A DNA stretch of 64,000 bases, taken from NCBI RefSeq assembly GCF_041381155.1, contig NC_091145.1, positions 36,347,882 through 36,411,881 on the forward strand, read 5' to 3'. The DNA comes from Argopecten irradians. Its lineage: Eukaryota > Mollusca > Bivalvia > Pectinida > Pectinidae. The position numbers and the translations under genes were made by a program. How positions within the stretch are numbered: the stretch's first letter is position 1; each line of letters opens with the position of its first letter. Under the pieces are notes generated by a model. It was not told the DNA's origin. It was given only the letters and a program-made list of their open reading frames with translations, and did not search any database. Of this stretch, positions 3,577-64,000 are shown piece by piece.

Positions 3577-4267
3577 TAAGGAATAGATTTTTATTTTGTT
3601 GAGGTTACAGTGTATAAGGGTATAATGATAATGGAGCACGTGTTGCCGGGTTACATAAAATTTACACGGGGCCATTATCATTATACCCTCATAACCTCAA
3701 CAAAATGAAAAGCTATTCCTTATATTTACAGTTTTAAACGTAAATGAATATTTATTCTCGCGACAGTTGCATATTTTTGTATCTAAATACCTATATTTTT
3801 TTCTCCTGTTCTCAGTTTGCACTGACATGGACTCAATAACCATGCTTTCTAGTATTAGCATTATCAGTGTACAGTACAAAACATGCGGCGATTCTATTGT
3901 TACGGGAATAGTCGCTGGCGTAGCAACGTGGGATCATGATCCCACTTTTGATGGGAACATATGGATGACTCGATTGCAATCAGCTGTTCAATCGAATTCG
4001 TTGACGATGACGGGATGACGAGAGAAGAAAAAAATAGGGGTATTTTAATAAAAAAAAAAGTATGCAACTTAAGCGAGAATAAATGTTTGCGTGAAAAACT
4101 GTAAATATAAGGAATAGGTTTTGATTTTGTTGAGGTTATGAGGGTATAATGATAATGAAGCCCGTGTAAATTTTATGTAGCCCGGCTTTGCCGGGGTTAC
4201 ATAATTTACACGTGCTCCGTTATCATTATACCCTCATAGCCTCAACAAAATCAAAATCAATTCCTTA
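3577..4267. mobile_element. Composite foldback element: two palindromic MITE-like units
   Basis: Two near-palindromes of about 150-160 bp, at 3577-3722 and 4108-4267, share the same arms. Each begins TAAGGAAT, continues into a TGAGGTTA...GGGTATAATGATAAT arm, and ends with the inverted complement. The spacer between them also begins and ends with inverted copies of one sequence (around 3723-3775 and 4050-4107: ATTTACAGTTTT versus AAAACTGTAAAT, and TTCTCG versus CGAGAA). The whole 690 bp is therefore a nested inverted repeat. No transposase frame is present, which fits non-autonomous elements. Either one unit inserted as an inverted pair or the complete structure is one foldback transposon. Confidence 0.75.
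3928..3945. repeat. Perfect 18-bp palindrome
   Basis: GTGGGATCATGATCCCAC is its own reverse complement. It lies near, but about 20 bp off, the symmetry centre of the surrounding foldback element, so it may be the remnant tip of the hairpin or a separate small insertion. Confidence 0.8.
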
Positions 4268-6640
4268 AATCTCACTGAAGCACGCCGCCGTAGTCGCCAA
4301 TACACTCCATACGATCACATACATATACAGCTATAAAACATTATCGGAATGAACAATGGCTTCATTATTGCAATTTTCCAATTAAAGATCTTTAATGAAT
4401 GCTCTTTTGAGATGAAATCTTTTGAAACTAGTTCATTTTGCGCGAAGCTTTAATAGCAAAAAGTACAACTCCGAGACGAGCTTCATAGAATATCGGACAA
4501 AACAAACACATTCAAAATACCATTCACTATGAAATCATGTTGAACCAGCGAACCAACGTTTCATGATCTCCGGTTCATGTCTCAATGTCATATTCCACAT
4601 TAGTGTCACAATATTACTATACAGATCTAACTCGTACAGTCCTACTCGACAGACAATTACGTGGGAATTTCGGAGATCCTTCGTCCATATTTCTATCATC
4701 TTTTGTTATTATCATTTTTGTCTGTGTGATTCGCCAAAAATACCCATTCCACTGGAAACTAATAGCATGGTATACACCCAACATGTCTTCAAATATTCAT
4801 TTGACCCATAGAACTATTGCTGGTATCCAACTTAGCCTCGGTTTCATCAACATTCCGTATCTCCATATAGAAGAGCAGTAGAAATCGATGGGGAAAATGA
4901 ACGTTCTTCAACTTCGTTTACTTTTTTATGGAGAGATTTAAATTAAGGAGCTTCCTGAAGTTAAAGAATATTGATAAAACTGGTCAAAATAAATTACAAG
5001 ACAATTATATGTTTGGAACTTTTTATTAATAAGAAAATGAGAGACTGGTTATATATGAGAATTTGAACAAATTTAATGATGAACTATAAGATAGAATGCA
5101 TGAAGTTATTAAACTTCACAATTAATGAAATGACACTGATAGTCATAAATACAATAAATAATGCACAAATGCAATGAACGGAATATATACGCTTCATACA
5201 ATTAAACTTGATAGTCATCATGGTTTTGTTAGATGGGTTCCCATGGAAACAGCGAACTGTCCTTCATTTATTGTTTATACAACTTTTACGAGACGGTAGA
5301 CTATGTTGTCTTGTAGATAAGACTGGAAATATAAAAACAAAGAATTTACAAATGCGTGGCATTCTTGTGATTCATGGGCATCACAAGGCTGACTCGACAC
5401 AAGTACATACCCTAAACATTGCAGACGTGAAATGCACATGCACGGTTTTTGCTTTCGTTTGTATTCAGTACACGACACGCCATGTCTAAAAACAATTCCA
5501 CTAGCAGGCTATTACCTAGGTATGATTCACGCCATCCATGGACCGCACTTCCACTACACAACGTAATATCATGGCTGGTTCTTTGGTGGACCAATTTACA
5601 TAACTATGTTTAAGATTACTATCATAACTATACAAGCTCCTGTCTAATTAAAGATGATATAACATGGACTTTGATTCCTTTTGTCTTTGATAAAGCATTG
5701 TTCGAAATTCATGAAAATCATTACTGACTACTTTAGTATTCGTTTTGAATTCTGTAGTTTTCACTTGATTACATACTTGCCGTATGGGGTAAACGGGGGA
5801 TGGTTATCGATATCGGAAACTCAGAACGTTTGAAAAGGCCACGTATCTTTGGATTTAATGAAATTATGTACCTATTCAGGACTATTTTTTATTTGCGACA
5901 CTATCATATCTATATATATGTATATGAAATGAAAATGCTGCTTACAGACGACATTGATTACATATTATATATCATAGGATACAATATGGTATAGTGATGG
6001 TCACTTTGTACAGAGCTGCCTGGTGTTGTGACAGGAAAGGTTTGAGCAGTTTCTATGACCTGGTCAAGGTGATATTCACATACCGACACTATCAGCGTCA
6101 GTACTCTCCTAGAACATGGTAACATAGCACAGCCATGGAAACGATTTTAACTTCACCGAACATTGTACAATACTGCAGTAACCACCGTAACACTAAGTTT
6201 ATCCTCGATTAACACTTCACGAGACAATACTAATTAATTTCTGAAAGGAAGATCATTGCAGTAGCAATGATACTTGTCCGTCATCCGAATATGTATTTTT
6301 TGGTTAAAATATTGCGAGCGAATCTATTTAAATAAATATTAATTAGCCACGTTAAGAAGCCAAGCGATATTAGACATTCTGTGTAAAATAGAAATTACAG
6401 ATTTCCATTGAGATGATCTTAATAGTTTAAATACATTTATGTTTTTGTAGTTATAATATACGCAAACCAATTCTAGAGGAACTTCACTAATACCATATAT
6501 ATACATTTCACTCAAAGTTATCATCAATGTAATTTCACCGTGTCATGTAAATCTAATATTCCTATAGGGGTTAGATGTTAATAATTTCATGTCATTGGAA
6601 TTAGATTTAGCTTTCGTTAGATTGACATCCGTTCATTTCT
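4268..6640. other. A/T-rich stretch with no recognisable gene
   Basis: Only short, overlapping open frames without splice support are present. I see no repeats of note and no recognisable protein. Confidence 0.5.
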
Positions 6641-6649
6641 GGTTAATGG

Positions 6650-7055
6650 TAAGTAGACTGGTTAGCAATTGTGATTAGAACTTTTCTTTGCTTGTTTCTG
6701 ATTGGCCGATGTACTGTTTCTGATTGGCCGATGTACCGGGTAGTTAGTGATTGGTGGATATTCTGGGGAGTTTTTGAATGGTCAATATTCTGGTAAGGTT
6801 TGATTGGTAGATATTCTGGTGAAGTTCGATTGGCCGATACTGTTGGTTTTGGAAGATTTTTATTGGTCACTATTCTGGATATTCTTAAGTTTGTGATAGG
6901 TCGATATTCTTGGAAGTTTGTGATCAGCTGATGTTGTAGAAAGTTTGTTATTTGTCGATGTTCTATGAAGTTTGTAATTGGTCGATATAGTTGGAAGTTT
7001 GTGATTTGCCGATGTTCTAGGAATTTGCGTGATAAATTGATATTATGGTGAGGCA
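6650..7055. repeat. Degenerate minisatellite, period about 30-40 bp
   Basis: A decayed tandem repeat built on the motif GTTTGTGATTGGTCGATATT, repeated roughly a dozen times with substitutions and small indels. On the minus strand it produces an open frame of about 138 codons made of ITNF/RPIT-like repeats. I regard this frame as a by-product of the repeat, because the divergence does not spare codons. Confidence 0.65.
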
Positions 7056-7908: not shown

Positions 7909-10900
7909 TCATGCTTCGTCAAACGCATTTCCCCACAGCAAAAGCTTCAATTTGGGATTGGAGGACGTCACAATACGAACACGGTAGCGTAAATCGTCAG
8001 AGGTCGCAGACGGGTTTGTGTGCTCGCGACCTAGTCTATTGTAACACAATTTCAACAAGGTCAACGTAGGGTTACACTCCAAAATATCCAGAATTTTTGA
8101 AAATCCATCATTTGTAATACCGCACATATTCAGCCCGAGAGTTTTGATTGATTTGTTGCGTTCTAAAGCATTAGATATTTTTAAAACACCTGCATCGGCT
8201 ATAAAATTAACACTAAGGTCCAAGTGCTGCAATGTTTTGTTCATTAAAATGACGTCAGAGAGCATCGCACATCCACCGGAAGTGATGCCACAGTTCTCTA
8301 AATTGAGGTCCACTAGAGTGGACTTGTCATTGAGATGGCGACACATCATTTCCATCCCATCGTCGCCGATAAAATTCCGACTTAAATCTAGTTCCGTCAG
8401 ACTACGACTCTGTTGAACACCTTCAAATAATATTCCACAGCCTATCCAGGAAATGTTCGCACTACGCAGACGCAGCTTTTTCAACGCTTTGTTCTGTTTG
8501 AGCATATTTCCCAGACTGATACATCCGCTGTCTGCGATGTCCAGAAAGCTCATGTCTAGATCTGTCACCCCGGGGTTGGTTCTGAGGGCCTCACCCAGGT
8601 GTTTACAGCCCTCACTGTCCATCCCTGTCGACGACAGATTCAGTTGTCTTATGCTGGTGTTTTTATTTAAGGCGGCCGCCAGCATTTTAGCACCTTCGTT
8701 ACCGATAGAGTTAAGGCGTAAGTCTAGTACAGAAAGGTTCGGAGAAGATTGTAGTGGCTCCGTAAAGAAACCAACATCTTTTCCAGACATTTGTGTTTTT
8801 CCAATATGCAGTTCTAGTATGCAAGGGTGTTTGCCGAGCATTTCTGCGAGCCGCTTGGATCTCTCGCCGTGTAGAGAATAACCCGATATACACACGGTAA
8901 TGACAAGCGTTCCTGTGATCTGCATGTCGTCGTCCAGTTTGAGTGCATCCCCTGACGTTATTGAGTGATACGACAGACGGGAACAGCGCTTGTAGAAGGT
9001 GGAGTCCCGTGAGAAACGTTTGTTGTCACCTCTTGCTTTCTCCAACTGGATCACCGGGGTCATAATCTCTGTGTCACAGTTATAATATCCAACATCGAAG
9101 GTGATTGTCTTCTCCTCCTCTACCGTAGTACTGCTGTCCTCCACCAGGGGGCACGGAATGTCAGATATGACGTTGTACACGTCACTCATAGCGTCCATTA
9201 TCTTAGCAATGTCACGGTAAGTGTCACTAGCACGAAGGATGTCACAGAAGGAATCAAACTGTTTGGGTTTCCCGTCGGACATGACATGGATCATACTCTC
9301 GCACACCAGACGTCTGTCCGGATGTCCGCGGAAAGCCTGCAAGTCCACAGAAGATATCACCTGTTTTGCATGTAGTTCGTCTAACAATTCGGAAGCATCA
9401 AACTTTTGACATATTAGTTCAGAAGCACTTTGCAAAATCACTCTATGTCGTTCATTTTCAACAGAGCCTGTCGACTTTTTCCTGCGCGTGAGAGTTCGGC
9501 GAGGAGTAAGGTCCGGAGTCACGATTTTGATTTTACTTGTATTTAAACTAGTATTAAGGCTGGAGATTTCCGAGTCTAATTTACTAACAGTTGTTTTCTG
9601 TAAAATAGGTTTGCTGATTTCAATATTGTTATTTTCAGACAGTTTCTTTTTCTCTGTTGTATTGCAACTGACGCCATTTTCCTTCCTTACGGGAGCGACA
9701 TGCGCAGTCGGTATATTGCCATCTTTCCCGCGGTTGGTTTGGTACGCTTGTGACATGACGTAAGAGTTCCTGTCCGTAGATCCACCAATCACAGCAGAGT
9801 TCCGTGGAGTGCTGATGGATGAAGACCGGAAGATGAAGAGTCGCGGAGGTTTGGGAGGAGGTTTTAAACTGTTACTCCTCCGGAACAAAGACTTTTCTCT
9901 GTCCCCTGGGGGCCCGTCGGTAGCGTCGTATTGGCCCCAATCAAACTTCTGGTCCCGCTTACGCCGTAAACTAAACTTCCTCCAAAACTTCCAAGGTGGG
10001 GAATTGGGACTTTCAGAGTCTGAAAGTAAAATGTGAATATTAGTATTCAAAGACTATATGAGATGAAACATTATTTTCATTGTTAAAAAGAACCGGTGCA
10101 GTAAACTGATATACAATAATTTTTATTCGTCGCAATATAAGCAATTCACTAGGAGTTGAGGTTTAAATGTTTATTAGACATACCAAAAGGTAATGATGGT
10201 ATAAATGTTAGCAGAGCTTGGTAGACTTTTTGTAGTAATGATTAAACACGTTTGGAATTCTTGTGAGGCTTTATTTGTCTTTTAGTATTATTTTTTTTCA
10301 ATTTTTTGTTTGCAATATTTTGCAATCCTGACAATGTTACGTTATATAACGTTTATCTTTGGCAATATCACAGCCCACCCGGTAGAAGTCATATATAACC
10401 AGTGTCTACTTATGTCTGACACACAGTAGCTAGTACAAAACGCCAGTTACACTACACAGATAGACAGGGCAGTACACAAACCAGGGACTGGTCTCCAGGC
10501 ATAAAATACTGTGTTAGGACTCTCGGACTCACCGGGCTAAAATCCAGAACTTCCCCTGAATTTTTAAGGGGAATAGCCTACACTATCTAGAATTAATTAC
10601 CTCTTCCGGAACACTTATAACTAAACGCTTCGTCAGATGTTGTGAGGATGATACGCCCAAACCTAGTATTTTTTGTTTACTGATAAATACGTGTTGTTAC
10701 CGAATTCCTCTCTGTCCCATACACACATTAGACGTAACGTGTAATTGAGGCGTGAAATACGACTTTCTCTCACTCTCCACTAACCATTACAGGTGTGATT
10801 GGGGAGGGGTGTGAAATACGACTCAATCATTTCTCTATAACCTCCCTCCCTTAGATGCTAAAACTGCTACAGTGAGTTTGAAACCCTTCAAAATCTCGCA

Positions 10901-36544: not shown

Positions 36545-38047
36545 ATCATGAGAGTAAAGCCAGATCGGAAACATCTCTGAGAACCAGAACAGTACGTACC
36601 AGATTGGTAAAATCTCTGAGAACCAGAATAGTACGTATACTAGACCTGTAAAATATCTGAGAACCAGAATAGTACTAGATTGGTAAAATCTCTGAGAACC
36701 AGAATAGTACGTATACTAGATCGGTAAAATATCTGAGAACCAGAATAGTACGTAAACAAGATCGGTAAAATCTCTGAGAACCAGAATAGTACTAGATCGG
36801 TAAAATCTCTGAGAACCAGAATAGTACGTACTAGATCGGTAAAATCTCTGAGAACCAGAATAGTACGTACTAGATCGGTGAAATCTCTGAGAACCAGAAT
36901 AGTACGTATACTAGATCGTAGTCCGCTAAACCTTGCCTATGTTATTAGGCTTTTTTTCCCCTAATATATAGTCTATAGTCTATATATTAGGCAAATTTTT
37001 TTTTAAAAAGCCTAATAATATAGGCAGGTTTAGCGGACAACTAGATCGGTAAAATCTCTGAGAACCAGAATAGTACGTAAACTAGATCTGTAAAATCTTT
37101 GAGAACCAGAATAGTACGTATACCAGATCGGTAAAATCTCTGAGAACCAGAATAGTACGTATACTAGATCGGTAAAATCTCTGAGAACCAGAATAGTACG
37201 TAAACTAGATCGGTAAAATCTCTGAGAACCAGAATAGTACGTATAATAGATCGGTGAAATCTCTGAGAACCAGAATAGTACGTACTAGATCGGTAAAATC
37301 TCTGAGAACCAGAATAGAACGTAAACTAGATCGGTAAAATCTCTGAGAACCAGAATAGTACGTATAATAGATCGGTGAAATCTCTGAGAACCAGAATAGT
37401 ACGTACTAGATCGGTAAAATCTCTGAGAACCAGAATAGTACGTATACTAGATCGGTAAAATCTCTGAGAACCAGAATAGTACCAGATCGGTGAAATCTCT
37501 GAGAACAAGAATAGTACGTATACCAGATCGGTGAAATCTTTTTAGAACCAGAATAGTACGTATACCATATCGGTATAATCTCTGAGAACCAGAATAGTAC
37601 GTACTAGATCGGTAAAATATCTGAGAACCAGAATAGTACGTATACCAGATCGGTAAAATCTTTGAGAACCAGAACAGTACGTATACCAGATCGGTAAAAT
37701 CTCTGAGAACCAGAATAGTACGTAAACTAGATCGGTAAAATCTCTGAGAACCAGAATAGTACCAGATCGGTGAAATCTCTGAGAACCGGTACGTACTAGA
37801 TCGGTAAAATCTCTGAGAACCAGAAAAGTACGTATACCAGATCGGTAAAATCTCTCTGAGAACCAGAAAAGTACGTATACCAGATCGGTAAAATCTCTCT
37901 GAGAACCAGAATAGTACTAGATCGGTAAAATCTCTCTGAGAACCAGAAGTAGTATACCAGATCGGTAAAATCTCTCTGAGAACCAGAATAGTACGTATAC
38001 CACATCGGTAAAATCTCTGAGAACCAGAATAGTACTAGATCTGTAAA
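36545..38047. repeat. Minisatellite, 33-41-bp unit, about 35 copies
   Basis: A long array built on GTAAAATCTCTGAGAACCAG, then AATAGTACGTATACTAGATCG. Unit length varies with how much of the ACGTAT linker is present: full units are 41 bp and shortened units about 37 or 33 bp. A later block (37790-38000) carries an extra CT (CTCTCTGAG). Copies are very similar, so the array is young or actively homogenised. It is interrupted once by a palindromic element at 36919-37040. Minus-strand open frames here (FWFSEILPI-like repeats) are by-products. Confidence 0.92.
36919..37040. mobile_element. Palindromic MITE-like insertion inside the minisatellite
   Basis: About 122 bp with long inverted arms: TAGTCCGCTAAACC...GTTATTAGGC on the left and GCCTAATAATATAGGCAGGTTTAGCGGAC on the right in inverted form. 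The host unit sequence CTAGATCG occurs directly on both sides, and removing the element plus one copy restores an uninterrupted array unit. This is consistent with an 8-bp (or 9-bp) target-site duplication, as made by hAT-type transposases, although a repeat boundary cannot be excluded. No coding capacity. Confidence 0.75.
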
Positions 38048-42177: not shown

Positions 42178-43033
42178 ATCTGCTGGCCCTAGACCAAAAG
42201 TCGGACGGGATTTGTACGGCGGAGTTTTTTTTTTTTTAGGTGGAAAATTTTTTTTTATTGGCCAGACTATTCTATCATAGAAACTGCCAGGGTTGGGGCC
42301 CTGGGGTCAGCCTCCTTACAAACAAATGTCCCCACACACGAGGGCTCTCAATCATCACACACACATTCATTCCCACCTAAACACATAAACAACTCTCAAC
42401 CCTTTCATTCTCAAGTACATAACTTACATATTCAACTTCAACAAAACATTTATCCTGGCTCTCACTCCATCTGTTTCACGCTATCATTCTTTCATACATG
42501 TATGTTTACACAAACCAAAAAACATAAAGAGTAGATAAACAAAAAATAGGAATAAGTATGAAAATAACTGAATGATAAATTCATAAAAATAAATAGGTTA
42601 ATAAATAAATAAAATAAGTAAATTCATAAATGAAAAACAAATAAATAAATAAGTAGTTATAATAATAATAATAAATAAAAAAAAATAAAAAAAAATAAAT
42701 AATAACAATAATTGCCATGGTTGATATAATTATATATAAATTAATTATAATTGGATTGATTGTAGATGGTTCAGACCCTCTCTGGTACAGATAACATGCA
42801 TATATATATTATAACAGAAGAAAAAATATTATGTTTGCGCCGATTATGTGCACTGTATCTTGTATATATCACAAGTATAACATAATATAAATGACTGTTT
42901 ATTACAGATGTATATCAGTTCTTAGACATAAATACAGATTCATATAATTCCACTAATATTGAAGAAGGTTAAAATTTATTCAGAAATCTGCTGGCCCTAG
43001 ACCAAAAGTCGGACGGGATTTGTACGGCGGAGT
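42178..43033. mobile_element. 760-bp insertion flanked by identical 48-bp direct repeats
   Basis: The same 48 bases, starting ATCTGCTGGCCCTAGACCAA and ending GTACGGCGGAGT, occur at 42178-42225 and 42986-43033. The intervening segment begins right after the first copy with a run of twelve T's. This is what a poly(A)-tailed element inserted on the minus strand with a long target-site duplication would look like. The inside has no clear coding frame and ends in an A/T-rich tract. Other explanations are recombination between two dispersed repeats or a solo-type structure. The element family is unknown. Confidence 0.6.
42580..42716. repeat. A/T-rich low-complexity tract (AAATA/AATAAT)
   Basis: Imperfect AAATA and AAT repeats and A-runs make up nearly all of this stretch inside the 760-bp insertion. 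Confidence 0.8.
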
Positions 43034-55684: not shown

Positions 55685-56588
55685 CCTTATATTCCTACGG
55701 CCCAATAGTCCGAAGGCCCATTAGTCCCAAGGCCCGTTAGTCCGAAGGCCCATTAGTCCCAAGGCCCGTTTGTCCGAAGGCCTAACAGTCCGAAAACAGA
55801 TAATATAACTGGAATTTATATGCGAGCAGTACTCGAAATGAAACAAACGTTTATTACGGTTTTCGATACAAATTACACGTATGTGACTCTATAGATTTGA
55901 TATGAAAAATGATAGTAATCAACGAAATGTTGCGAATTAAAAAAGAGCATAATCTTGAAATACGTAAACGTATCTGACATTAAAAAAGTATATGCATTTT
56001 ATATGTACAATGCAATCGGTTTAACATCACCCCCTAAAATATCATTATGCGGACCATTTCCGTCATTATGGGTAGAATAAATAACAAGTCAAACAAAGGG
56101 GAAGGAAACGCAAAAATAAGTCGTTAAAATATGTACACAATGTACAATATAACAACGTTTACAGGTATAATAATGCTCATTTTTCGATTCGTAAGATTTG
56201 ATTATATACAACATTTATTCACGGAGCAACGTTAATCCTAATGCAATCAAATTACAGTGTACATAAGGCTTACAATCGAACATCTTAAAGCTTGTATGTT
56301 CGTAACATAATTTATAGAACGCATGCTTGTGAGATATATCATAAAATATAACATATCAACTTTTTTATTATTATCTTTTTATATTTTGATGAAATTTTTG
56401 TAAATTGTCAGATCAGCAGTGCAGAAAATGTTTTCGTGAAAATACAACTATACGTTAATTTTAACAACTATATAACTTACAATATTTACTGATTTTCGGA
56501 CTAACGGGCCTTCGGACTATTGGGCCTTCGGACTAAAGGGCCCTCGGACTATTGGAACTTCGGACTATTAGGCCGTAGGGATATAAGG
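55685..56588. mobile_element. Foldback transposon-like element with iterated terminal repeats
   Basis: The ends are inverted: CCTTATATTCCTACGGCCCA on the left and its complement (GGCCGTAGGGATATAAGG) on the right. Inside each end lies a short array of a 16-17-bp motif, AGTCCGAAGGCCCATT, about six copies on the left (to 55795) and five inverted on the right (from 56493). The 700-bp core is very A/T-rich and non-coding. Long terminal inverted repeats built from short tandem units are typical of foldback elements. No target-site duplication could be assigned. Confidence 0.8.
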
Positions 56589-61000: not shown

Positions 61001-64000
61001 TTTAAAAGAATTTAGCCAAGGCAAAATGCATATAAACCGGAGGTCCTCTGCCTGTCAACAAAGACAAAGAAGGAGTTTCCAATCTCTATGAATACATGTT
61101 TCTGATTCTGAAATTCTGCATAGATTGAAGATCATGGGTTTGAACTGGGAGTTGCTGTTTTTTTGGTTCAAAGTTAGCACAGTTAAAACCTTTCAGGCTT
61201 TCACTACACTACATTTGAGTATCCTTACAGTTATTAATGATTACCTTGATACTTTCTATCTCTTTAATTTCAGCGTAACAGGTTTGGCTTTATTTTGGTT
61301 TAGATATTGCAACATTTTTCACTGCTTAATGTGTGAATATATTATTGTCCTAAACATATAAATATGTTAATAACAATTAAAGCATATTACATGTATAATT
61401 GAAAGAGGCCACGTATACAAAACCTGCGCACCTACTTATTACAGAAAACAGCAACCACAGATGGCAAAGCGTCCGGTAGAGGTGTGGAGACGTCACTGAA
61501 GGCATTCTATAAAGAATTCAGAAAGGTAATGTTAGAACAATAAGTTTTAAGATCTATAGCGAGATTCTCCTAACTATTAACCAAAATACTTTAATTAATG
61601 GTTTTGATTTTCATATAAGTTCTGATAAGTCGTTTAAAACCTGAAGTGTAAGTTGATATTGATATTAATTGATATAGGTAGTGATGCTGCCTATGTGGTA
61701 ATGCAAGTGTTGGATGCACAGGACAATCATTATCTGTTTATAATAATTATATGATACACCATCTCCATAGTTTACATCCAAGAAGTGTAAAGAATTATTG
61801 TGATAAGATCATTCTGGCCTAAATGCATTACGGCTAGTATTCACAAGATTACAATACGTACCTGTTATAATAATGTTTCCTGACTTGTATTGATTTTGAT
61901 TTAAGTTTTATAATATTTCATATCTGACCTTTATTTATAAGTCAGTATTGATGTAATGTGACGGTTTCCTGCCCTAAAGGTGGTGGATGCAGCCGATGTG
62001 GTCCTGGAGGTATTGGATGCCCGGGACCCGTTAGGGAGTAGGTGTGCTCAGATGGAGGAGGCCATCATCAGCAGCGGGGTCAACAAACGTCTGGTTCTAG
62101 TTCTCAATAAAATAGGTATTAAAATACAATCTCCTTTCTTTCATAAATGATATGGTATACTGTATATAGATGGTAATTTATGCCAAGACGATGTTTTGTT
62201 GATTTCAGGGCACGTTGCTTTGATCACAAAAATTTGATTTGTCAAATATTGAGGAATTCTGTATTTACAAATTACAGAGTTATCTGCCCTTTCTGATAGG
62301 TATTTATTGTGATGCTGGTGATTGTGAGCGACGAATTTCATACTTTTTAAAGAAACCGACATGACTTGTACTCACAAAATAATGACGTCACATTGAATAC
62401 CTACCCGCAAGGGAGGTAAACCTGTAATATGCAATGAGGGAATAGATGAATGATATGTTCACCTTTCTAGCTAAGTCCCAAAATTATAATTCGTCAAAAT
62501 TTTCACAAAATCAACAATGACCAATCAATATGTTCACCAAAATCATCCCTGTAAATAATGTCCATGACTATTTTGACCATATTTGGGTTTTGTTCTAGAT
62601 CTTGTTCCTCGTGAGAATGTGGAGGCATGGTTGACACACTTAAGAAATGAGTTCCCAACTGTAGCTTTCAAGGCTTCTACACAGACTCAGACAGATAACT
62701 TGGTAAGTCTTAGAATACTGATGTTTGCTCAGACAGATAACTTGGTAAGTCTTAGAATACTGATGTTTGCTCAGACAGATAACTTGGTATGTCTTAGAAT
62801 ACTGATGTTTGCTCAGACAGATAACTTGGTATGTCTTAGAATACTGATGTTTGCTCAGACAGATAACTTGGTATGCCTTAGAATACTGATGTTTGCTCAG
62901 ACAGATAACTTTGTAAGTCTTAGAATACTGATGTTTGCTCAGACAGATAACTTGGTAAGTCTTAGAATACTGATGTTTGCTCAGATAGATAACTTGGTAA
63001 GTCTTAGAATACTGATGTTTGCTCAGACAGATAACTTGGTATGTCTTAGAATACTGATGTTTGCTCAGACAGATAACTTGGTATGTCTTAGAATACTGAT
63101 GTTTGCTCAGACAGATAACTTGGTAAGTCTTAGAATACTGATGTTTGCTCAGATAGATAACTTGGTAAGTCTTAGAATACTGATTTGCTCAGATAGATAA
63201 CTTGGTAAGTCTTAGAATACTGATGTTTGCTCAGACAGATAACTTGGTAAGTCTTAGAATACTGATGTTTGCTCAGACAGATAACTTGGTAGTCTTAGAA
63301 TACTGATGTTTGCTCAGACAGATAACTTGGTAAGTCTTAGAATACTGATGTTTGCTCAGATAGATAACTTGGTATGTCTTAGAATACTGATGTTTGCTCA
63401 GACAGAGAATGGTTTCTTATTCTTTTTCAAAAAACCCAGAAAAATTTTAATTTGAAAGACTTGAAAATTTAGAAACTATCAACTGAATTTTTGACATTTA
63501 GTTGGAGAAATCATATGGTATACCTTGAAACGAGGTATGATTATTAAATAGCAGTAACTTGCAACTATTTTCAGTTGCTCATAACAGTTAAAACTTCTGT
63601 AAATTTTAGAGTCAGAAGAAGGTAACGTTGGCCACGGTGAGTGATGATGTTCTGAAGTCGAGTCACTGTATTGGAGCGGAAATCCTGATGAAACTGCTGG
63701 GGAACTACTGTCGCAGTAAAGACATTAAGACAGCCATACGAGTAGGGGTGGTCGGTAAGTCTGACTGTAGAGATCTTGTTCAGACGTCTCTTAGATTTAA
63801 ACTTAGCTCTATATAAAGATAATAATAGTGTAAATTTACTCTTATTAGAATTATAATAGTTACCCATTATTTATTTTATTGTTTTAACCTTGTTGACAGA
63901 ATTCTTTCAAATTCTTTATGTATTTTGGTTACAAGGTGTTGAAAGATTTCTTGATCTTTGTTCTACTTAATGAATGGCTTTTAATGAATATCCTGAAATA
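58072..64000 (+). CDS. GNL3: Nucleostemin-type GTPase (GNL3 homologue), 5' nine exons, partial
   Basis: Coding exons: 58072-58090, 58549-58601, 59406-59460, 59768-59850, 60438-60566, 61445-61525, 61980-62115, 62599-62702, 63610-63754, all GT-AG and in phase, giving 268 codons before the window ends. The family are nucleolar GTPases needed for pre-60S ribosome maturation and proliferation. The N-terminus is short, then very basic ([17 protein letters not shown], a GNL3 nucleolar-targeting region), followed by [12 protein letters not shown] and a Lys/Arg/Glu coiled-coil stretch. The circularly permuted G domain starts with the DARDP motif (153-157) and the G4 motif NKID (183-186); IRVGVV at 263-268 directly precedes the P-loop, which lies in the next exon, outside the window. 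The conserved N-terminus favours GNL3; the region after NKID resembles GNL3L, as expected for an unduplicated ancestral gene. Intron 8 contains a tandem array copying the exon 8 donor. Confidence 0.93.
58935..59240 (+). mobile_element. Two decayed, related SINE-like remnants in GNL3 intron 2
   Basis: GGGTTCAAATACCAGTCTGG (near 58952) and GGGTTTGAATCCCGGTATGG (near 59184) are each followed by CTGCTA, ATTT and a pyrimidine-rich stretch ending TGTTGTAAA or TGTTACAAA. The shared GGTTNGAATCCC-like box resembles a Pol III B-box, so these look like old tRNA-derived SINE copies. The A-box part is not clear in either. Confidence 0.45.
62691..63401 (+). repeat. 42-bp tandem array, 17 units, copying the GNL3 exon 8 donor
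   Basis: The unit is ACAGATAACTTG followed by GTAAGTCTTAGAATACTGAT and GTTTGCTCAG. The first unit spans the last 12 bases of exon 8 (codons TDNL), the splice donor and the first 30 intron bases; it is then repeated 16 more times. The donor is GTAAGT in ten units, GTATGT or GTATGC in six and damaged in one. Since 42 is divisible by three and no stop is present, the reading frame stays open into the twelfth unit, where a 2-bp deletion near 63184 shifts it into a stop at about 63200. Each unit also recreates TTTGCTCAG before ACAGATAACTTG. Confidence 0.95.

Follow-up and report, generated by a model that had tools for sequence, protein, structure and literature searches.

Which of many tandem splice donors at an exon boundary would be used, and how a repeat could come to lie there and be borne, were the questions raised by the GNL3 locus of Argopecten irradians. 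GNL3 is probably an essential gene. We analysed a window of 64,000 nucleotides in which the boundary between exon 8 and intron 8 of this gene was straddled by a 42-bp minisatellite. All gene and array features described below were on the + strand, and positions are those of the window unless a downstream locus is named.

Exon 8 (62599-62702, 104 nt, beginning with DLVPREN) ended at 62702 with TTG/GTAAGT, at the donor of the first repeat unit, and was followed by a phase 0 intron. The acceptor of this intron, TTTTAG, was located at 63604-63609 and led into exon 9 (63610-63754, SQKK...AIRVGVVG) through the junction AG/AGTCAG. The exon number 8 came from a count by eye, and no first coding exon was located. 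The exons used in the protein searches were also joined by eye, with only approximate joins in the N-terminal part. When exons 7-9 were joined at donor 1, the resulting 129 residues matched human GNL3 (8fkp chain NB, E 3.5e-33), followed by Grn1 and Nug1. This fragment alone contained no Pfam family above the cut-off, and the fragment from exons 5-6 gave no Pfam family at all. A longer join scored above the cut-offs for both GN3L_Grn1 (PF08701, 61.1 bits against 22.3) and MMR_HSR1 (PF01926, 37.6 bits against 21.9). Thus, the assignment to GNL3 made in an earlier sequence-only reading holds on protein similarity, and the gene can be placed in the nucleostemin/GNL3L family. The GNL3 gene retained by invertebrates was, according to the abstract of PMC9449814, duplicated to give vertebrate nucleostemin and GNL3L. 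The DNA downstream carried GFPNTGKSSIINSL and LLDSPGVVMATGASD, indicating that the coding exons go on.

The array interrupted the part of the gene that encodes the linker between two GTPase motifs. NKID, which we take to be the G4 motif, spanned exons 7 and 8, and GFPNTGKSS, presumably the P-loop, was encoded downstream of the array. Judged from these motifs, G4, array and P-loop follow one another as in a circularly permuted GTPase. The exon alignments and the motif order bore out the earlier placement of the array between the G4 and P-loop regions, with the G4/G5 part on one side of it and the P-loop on the other. It had also been proposed that insertions at this site vary among family members, and we compared the linker with four solved homologues. 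Against human GNL3, the 129 query residues aligned with 125 and the linker gaps were 1-2 residues long. The alignment with the 8pv1 protein covered 119 of its residues, and those with Grn1 (query 1-121) and Nug1 (query 1-97) were partial. Linker gaps reached about 12 residues against Grn1 and the 8pv1 protein, both of which were shorter there. Since the gaps of the relatives ranged from 1-2 to about 12 residues, an insert of about one unit (14 residues) would be near the known range, but an insert of many units (up to 154 residues) would be far outside it. The proposal was upheld for the former and not for the latter.

The array at the exon 8 boundary is real. Tandem Repeats Finder reported it at 62686-63406 with a period of 42, 17.2 copies, 96% matches and a score of 1337. 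When the sequence was split on CTCAGA, there were 17 full units: fifteen of 42 bp, unit 12 (63148-63187) of 40 bp and unit 15 (63272-63312) of 41 bp. A 10-bp stub ended the array, and other intron DNA followed. Tandem Repeats Finder and the unit split thus agreed with the previous description of 17 tandem 42-bp copies at the exon 8/intron 8 boundary, and the interval 62691-63401 given for them was the same array in another register. A 28-base core, searched with at most three mismatches, matched 16 times in the window, always inside the array (unit 15 was missed), and had no matches in 100 shuffles of the window. The common unit was CAGACAGATAACTTG, then GTAAGTCTTAGAATACTGATGTTTGCT ahead of the next CAG. 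An acceptor-like sequence had been noted in each unit and was present without exception, TTTGCTCAG following the donor in 17 of 17 units. The last 12 exon bases, ACAGATAACTTG, had likewise been ascribed to each unit, but they were exact in only 12 of the 17; four units had ATAG in place of ACAG, and unit 6 ended in T. The mean pairwise identity of the 15 full-length units was 0.973. Eight unit types could be distinguished, interspersed in the order AABBCDAEBBAFEAGAH, and a search for higher-order repeats found no block order repeated above chance (best lag match P 0.45).

The claim that every unit carries a donor needed a similar correction. The donor was GGTAAGT in nine units, GGTATGT in five, GGTATGC in one and TGTAAGT in one, and in unit 15 it was broken (GGTAGTC). 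The 721-bp array held nine copies of GGTAAGT, compared with six on the + strand of the window outside its arrays. The donor of unit 1 (GTAAGT, 62703-62708) was the predicted main 5' splice site. The donor of unit 2 (GTAAGT, 62745-62750) was the same over positions -3 to +6, so that sequence strength gave no choice between them; its use would add 14 residues. All the donors of units 3-6 (62787-62918) were weakened, being GTATGT, GTATGT and GTATGC in units 3-5, with a change of the exon base at -1 from G to T in unit 6. Because these four were weaker than the first two, the next GGTAAGT donor was that of unit 7, which would produce an exon of 356 nt. Units 7-12 (62955-63170), all in frame, had GTAAGT in units 7, 8, 11 and 12 and GTATGT in units 9 and 10, and the corresponding exons would be 356-566 nt long.

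The predicted pairing with U1 was -9.1 kcal/mol for the GGTAAGT donors and -5.3 for the GGTATGT donors, in comparison with -9.3 for the donor of exon 9, -6.8 for those of exons 5 and 6 and -5.6 for that of exon 7; both the weight table for the donors and the 5' end of U1 were human-based, and we relied on them for ranks within the array and the gene alone. Six distinct variant events were counted among the units. Four of them (three substitutions and one deletion) fell in the 9-nt donor motif and weakened it, with a nominal P of 0.02 that is post hoc, as the motif was chosen after the variants had been seen and a variant common to several units was counted once. Should this excess be meaningful, it would suggest that spare donors are decaying and not being maintained. 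RNA folding of 62599-63470 revealed no unusual structure, the region being less stable than 20 of 20 shuffles (z +2.77). The mean unpaired probability of the donors ranged from 0.16 to 0.43 over the 17 units; it was 0.35 for unit 1 and 0.30 for unit 2, and unit 6 had the highest value. A scan of 62600-62700 for bacterial promoters and terminators, with models unsuited to such a genome, found nothing.

The reading frame divided the donors further. Donors 1-12 were in register with exon 8. The 2-bp loss in unit 12 put donors 13-15 out of register, and the 1-bp loss in unit 15, which also destroyed the donor of that unit, brought donors 16 and 17 back into register but behind stops. The open frame ran from stop to stop over 62577-63197. 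The sequence-only reading had allowed 14 additional residues per unit for up to about 11 extra units, and this arithmetic was correct at 11 units and 154 residues, since donors 1-12 were in frame with no stop. However, the open frame was weak evidence for coding. In window positions 1-62000, 647 of the 1153 30-nt segments starting with GTA had no in-frame stop; multiplied by one third for a unit length divisible by 3, this gave a rough estimate of about 0.19, so that one array in five would be open by chance. Four substitutions separated the units, and three of the four changed a residue, compared with 99 nonsynonymous or stop changes among the 126 possible. Frame-changing indels were present in 2 of 17 units. 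Coding constraint on the repeats was not seen in these four to six variant events, a number that gave low power. A coding repeat, considered as the cause of the open frame, was not needed, given the chance of about 0.19 and no visible constraint. The 14-residue unit peptide was hydrophobic, with a mean hydropathy of +0.72 in contrast to -0.28 for the beginning of the linker in exon 9.

The two ends of the array were informative with regard to its origin. The 10-bp direct repeat CTCAGACAGA was present at 62686-62695, within exon 8, as the putative seed, and again at 63397-63406 as the stub that closed the array. Exact 10-mers that recurred 20-60 bp further on were found at only 19 of 60370 positions outside the masked arrays, and for none of them was the distance exactly 42 bp. 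The presence of CTCAGACAGA at both ends suggests birth by slippage, although a partial last copy alone does not by itself prove a seed. The 97.3% identity of the full-length units implied that the array was young or homogenised. When three units were searched against the genome of the same species, all seven matches were inside this array; because this search passes over very common words and scores just the best candidates, its counts are lower bounds, and a lack of matches elsewhere is no proof of absence. The GNL3 protein gave four matches in the same assembly from seven scored candidates, three of which were its own exons and the fourth a paralogue exon (54% identical). None of these four represented a retrocopy, a second haplotype or a spare copy of the gene. 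The paralogous GTPase exon was located on contig C6 at 17104681-17104830, with the identity extending over 50 residues, and might belong to another nucleolar GTPase of the family. Mitochondrial COX1 had no match in this assembly.

Taken together, we consider it likely, with a probability of roughly 0.68, that a young minisatellite multiplied the 5' splice site of exon 8 and that splicing uses mostly unit 1 and perhaps unit 2, the other donors being mostly idle or decayed. The proposed course of events would begin with a 42-bp segment spanning the exon 8 donor and flanked by CTCAGACAGA. Slippage or unequal exchange may have duplicated this segment, and growth to 17 units would have followed, multiplying the splice site with it. 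A single ancestral segment between the two CTCAGACAGA repeats would explain the array, its register and the stub. The donor of unit 1 would be used in most transcripts, giving a GNL3 linker of normal length, and the donor of unit 2 would be the likeliest alternative, lengthening it by 14 residues. Units 3-6, as weak donors, would be little used, and so would units 7 and beyond because of the exon of 356 nt or more that they would require. This explanation is supported by the first copy being in register with the exon end, and by the alignment of the exons joined at donor 1 with human GNL3, in which the gaps were 1-2 residues long. The array could then be tolerated as ordinary intron, its first copy having preserved the authentic end of the exon together with the donor.

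The in-frame run of 12 donors, on the other hand, is also how a tolerated splice ladder would look and counts against the favoured explanation. Splicing might slip among units 1-12 and produce GNL3 isoforms that grow by 14 residues per unit and vary with the copy number of the individual. Such a ladder would be served by the absence of stops up to donor 12 and by GGTAAGT in six of the 12 in-frame donors (units 1, 2, 7, 8, 11 and 12). Human IFI6 indeed uses two downstream repeat units as donors for three mRNAs, as described in passages of PMC4526556, and the differences of up to about 12 residues among the solved relatives indicate that one additional unit might be borne. However, the frame could be open by chance, the added peptide would be hydrophobic, coding constraint was not seen in the few variant events, and beyond the weakened donors 3-6 only exons of 356 nt or more are available. 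We therefore regard the working ladder as unlikely. At the opposite extreme, donor 1 alone would ever be used and the remainder would be plain intron. Everything that speaks for the main reading speaks for this one as well; a strong exon-definition bias would suffice, and the folding of exon 8 with the array was ordinary, with 20 of 20 shuffles folding at least as well. Since donor 2 matched donor 1 over -3 to +6 and was only 42 nt away, some slippage is to be expected, and an entirely inert array appears improbable. Still less probable is a copy-number-tuned rheostat, in which the tandem U1 sites would keep U1 snRNP bound to intron 8 and the 17-fold donor array would set GNL3 output or the share of the lengthened isoforms. 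If it were true, the dose of the nucleolar GTPase or the length of its linker would vary between individuals with different repeat numbers; a copy-number difference between individuals is itself plausible for a minisatellite.

Two further possibilities received very little weight. It had been suggested that the units could be spliced one by one as 12-nt TDNL micro-exons, each with its own acceptor TTTGCTCAG and donor and in frame at any number. The acceptor-like element did occur in all 17 units, with 9 of 17 pyrimidines at -20 to -4, the same as in the real acceptor of intron 8, and in potato a tandem duplication across an exon boundary gave a new intron, according to passages of PMC4974935. 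However, neighbouring units leave an intron of only 30 nt, whereas the spliced human introns named in passages of PMC4463651 were 43, 49 and 56 nt long, sizes that may not be the limit in this organism. Moreover, only 11 nt separated the branch-like A (in CTGAT) from the AG, and in the light of the human introns splicing between neighbouring units appears unworkable. Longer introns of 72 or 114 nt, made by skipping units, would be possible, yet the A would still be 11 nt before the AG and a further AG would occur every 42 nt. We consider splicing of the units as micro-exons unlikely. Finally, the copy number may have been inflated or invented in the assembly. The array was known from a single assembly, but its eight unit types were interspersed with no block order repeated above chance (P 0.45), and other large arrays were present in the region. 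Of all the readings, we found an artefact the hardest to credit.

The locus represents a natural competition experiment. Behind one exon and ahead of one acceptor, 17 near-identical 5' splice sites follow one another every 42 nt or so, and nine of these sites are GGTAAGT; the locus thus bears on how distance, order and the weakening of single bases influence the choice of a donor. It further suggests how a gene that is probably essential can come to carry, and to bear, a minisatellite on one of its splice sites, since the first copy preserves the authentic boundary.

The surroundings were rich in repeats. Six arrays with at least five copies each, hand-picked from the Tandem Repeats Finder output with the A/T-rich simple repeats at 42587-42712 left out, made up about 4% of the window. 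With so many repeats in the genome, chance may have placed some arrays across exon boundaries. A 41-bp minisatellite at 36560-38035 (about 37 copies, 82% matches) was longer than the GNL3 array. Short arrays of apparently one 16-mer, GGCCCATTAGTCCGAA, were found in opposite orientation at 55699-55794 and 56495-56574, about 700 bp apart, and were possibly the arms of one element. Short arrays clustered at 6693-7027, their units being 22, 26 and 27 bp long and having TGATTGG in common. Three more arrays were observed in the downstream locus L008. Those at 554-1223 (156-bp unit, 4.3 copies) and 3893-5507 (146-bp unit, 11.1 copies) lay, by eye, in later GNL3 introns, and the one at 9384-9519 consisted of three copies of a 46-bp unit with 100% matches and was very young or homogenised.

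Among the matches listed in the open-licence PMC literature, including those on donor competition and on GNL3 in molluscs, nothing concerned the GNL3 exon 8 array. The array is unusual but has a precedent from 1995 in human IFI6 (6-16, G1P3), whose minisatellite provides multiple splice donors according to the title of Turri, Cuin and Porter (Nucleic Acids Res 23:1854). The two IFI6 repeat units that serve as donors in PMC4526556 are both downstream ones. We found the same type of anatomy here, namely a head-to-tail array at an exon-intron boundary with the donor consensus in most units, so that the GNL3 array is likewise a minisatellite with multiple donors, known in this case from its sequence. 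The IFI6 repeat reportedly has 12-bp units at the end of an exon of an interferon-induced gene. The GNL3 units differ from it in being 42 bp long and including more intron, and they belong to a ribosome-biogenesis GTPase of an invertebrate genome.

Other systems shared single aspects with this locus. In human ABCA7, skipping of exon 19 correlates with the length of an intronic VNTR (PMC5954066). This is also a tandem repeat within an intron that is tied to a splicing change, but the abstract of that paper is silent on donor multiplication by the VNTR. In the intron 3 of the abalone TSSK1-like gene, a minisatellite with a 27-bp unit differs in copy number between individuals, as stated in passages of PMC6905558; it resembles the GNL3 array as an intronic minisatellite in an animal gene, but those passages do not report an overlap with a splice site. 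The potato RdRp gene, where one tandem duplication over the boundary of intron 1 and exon 2 made a new intron, is similar in that a duplication crossed an intron-exon boundary and copied the splice signals. In GNL3, by contrast, the copies numbered 17 and lay on the donor side, with no sign of a new intron.
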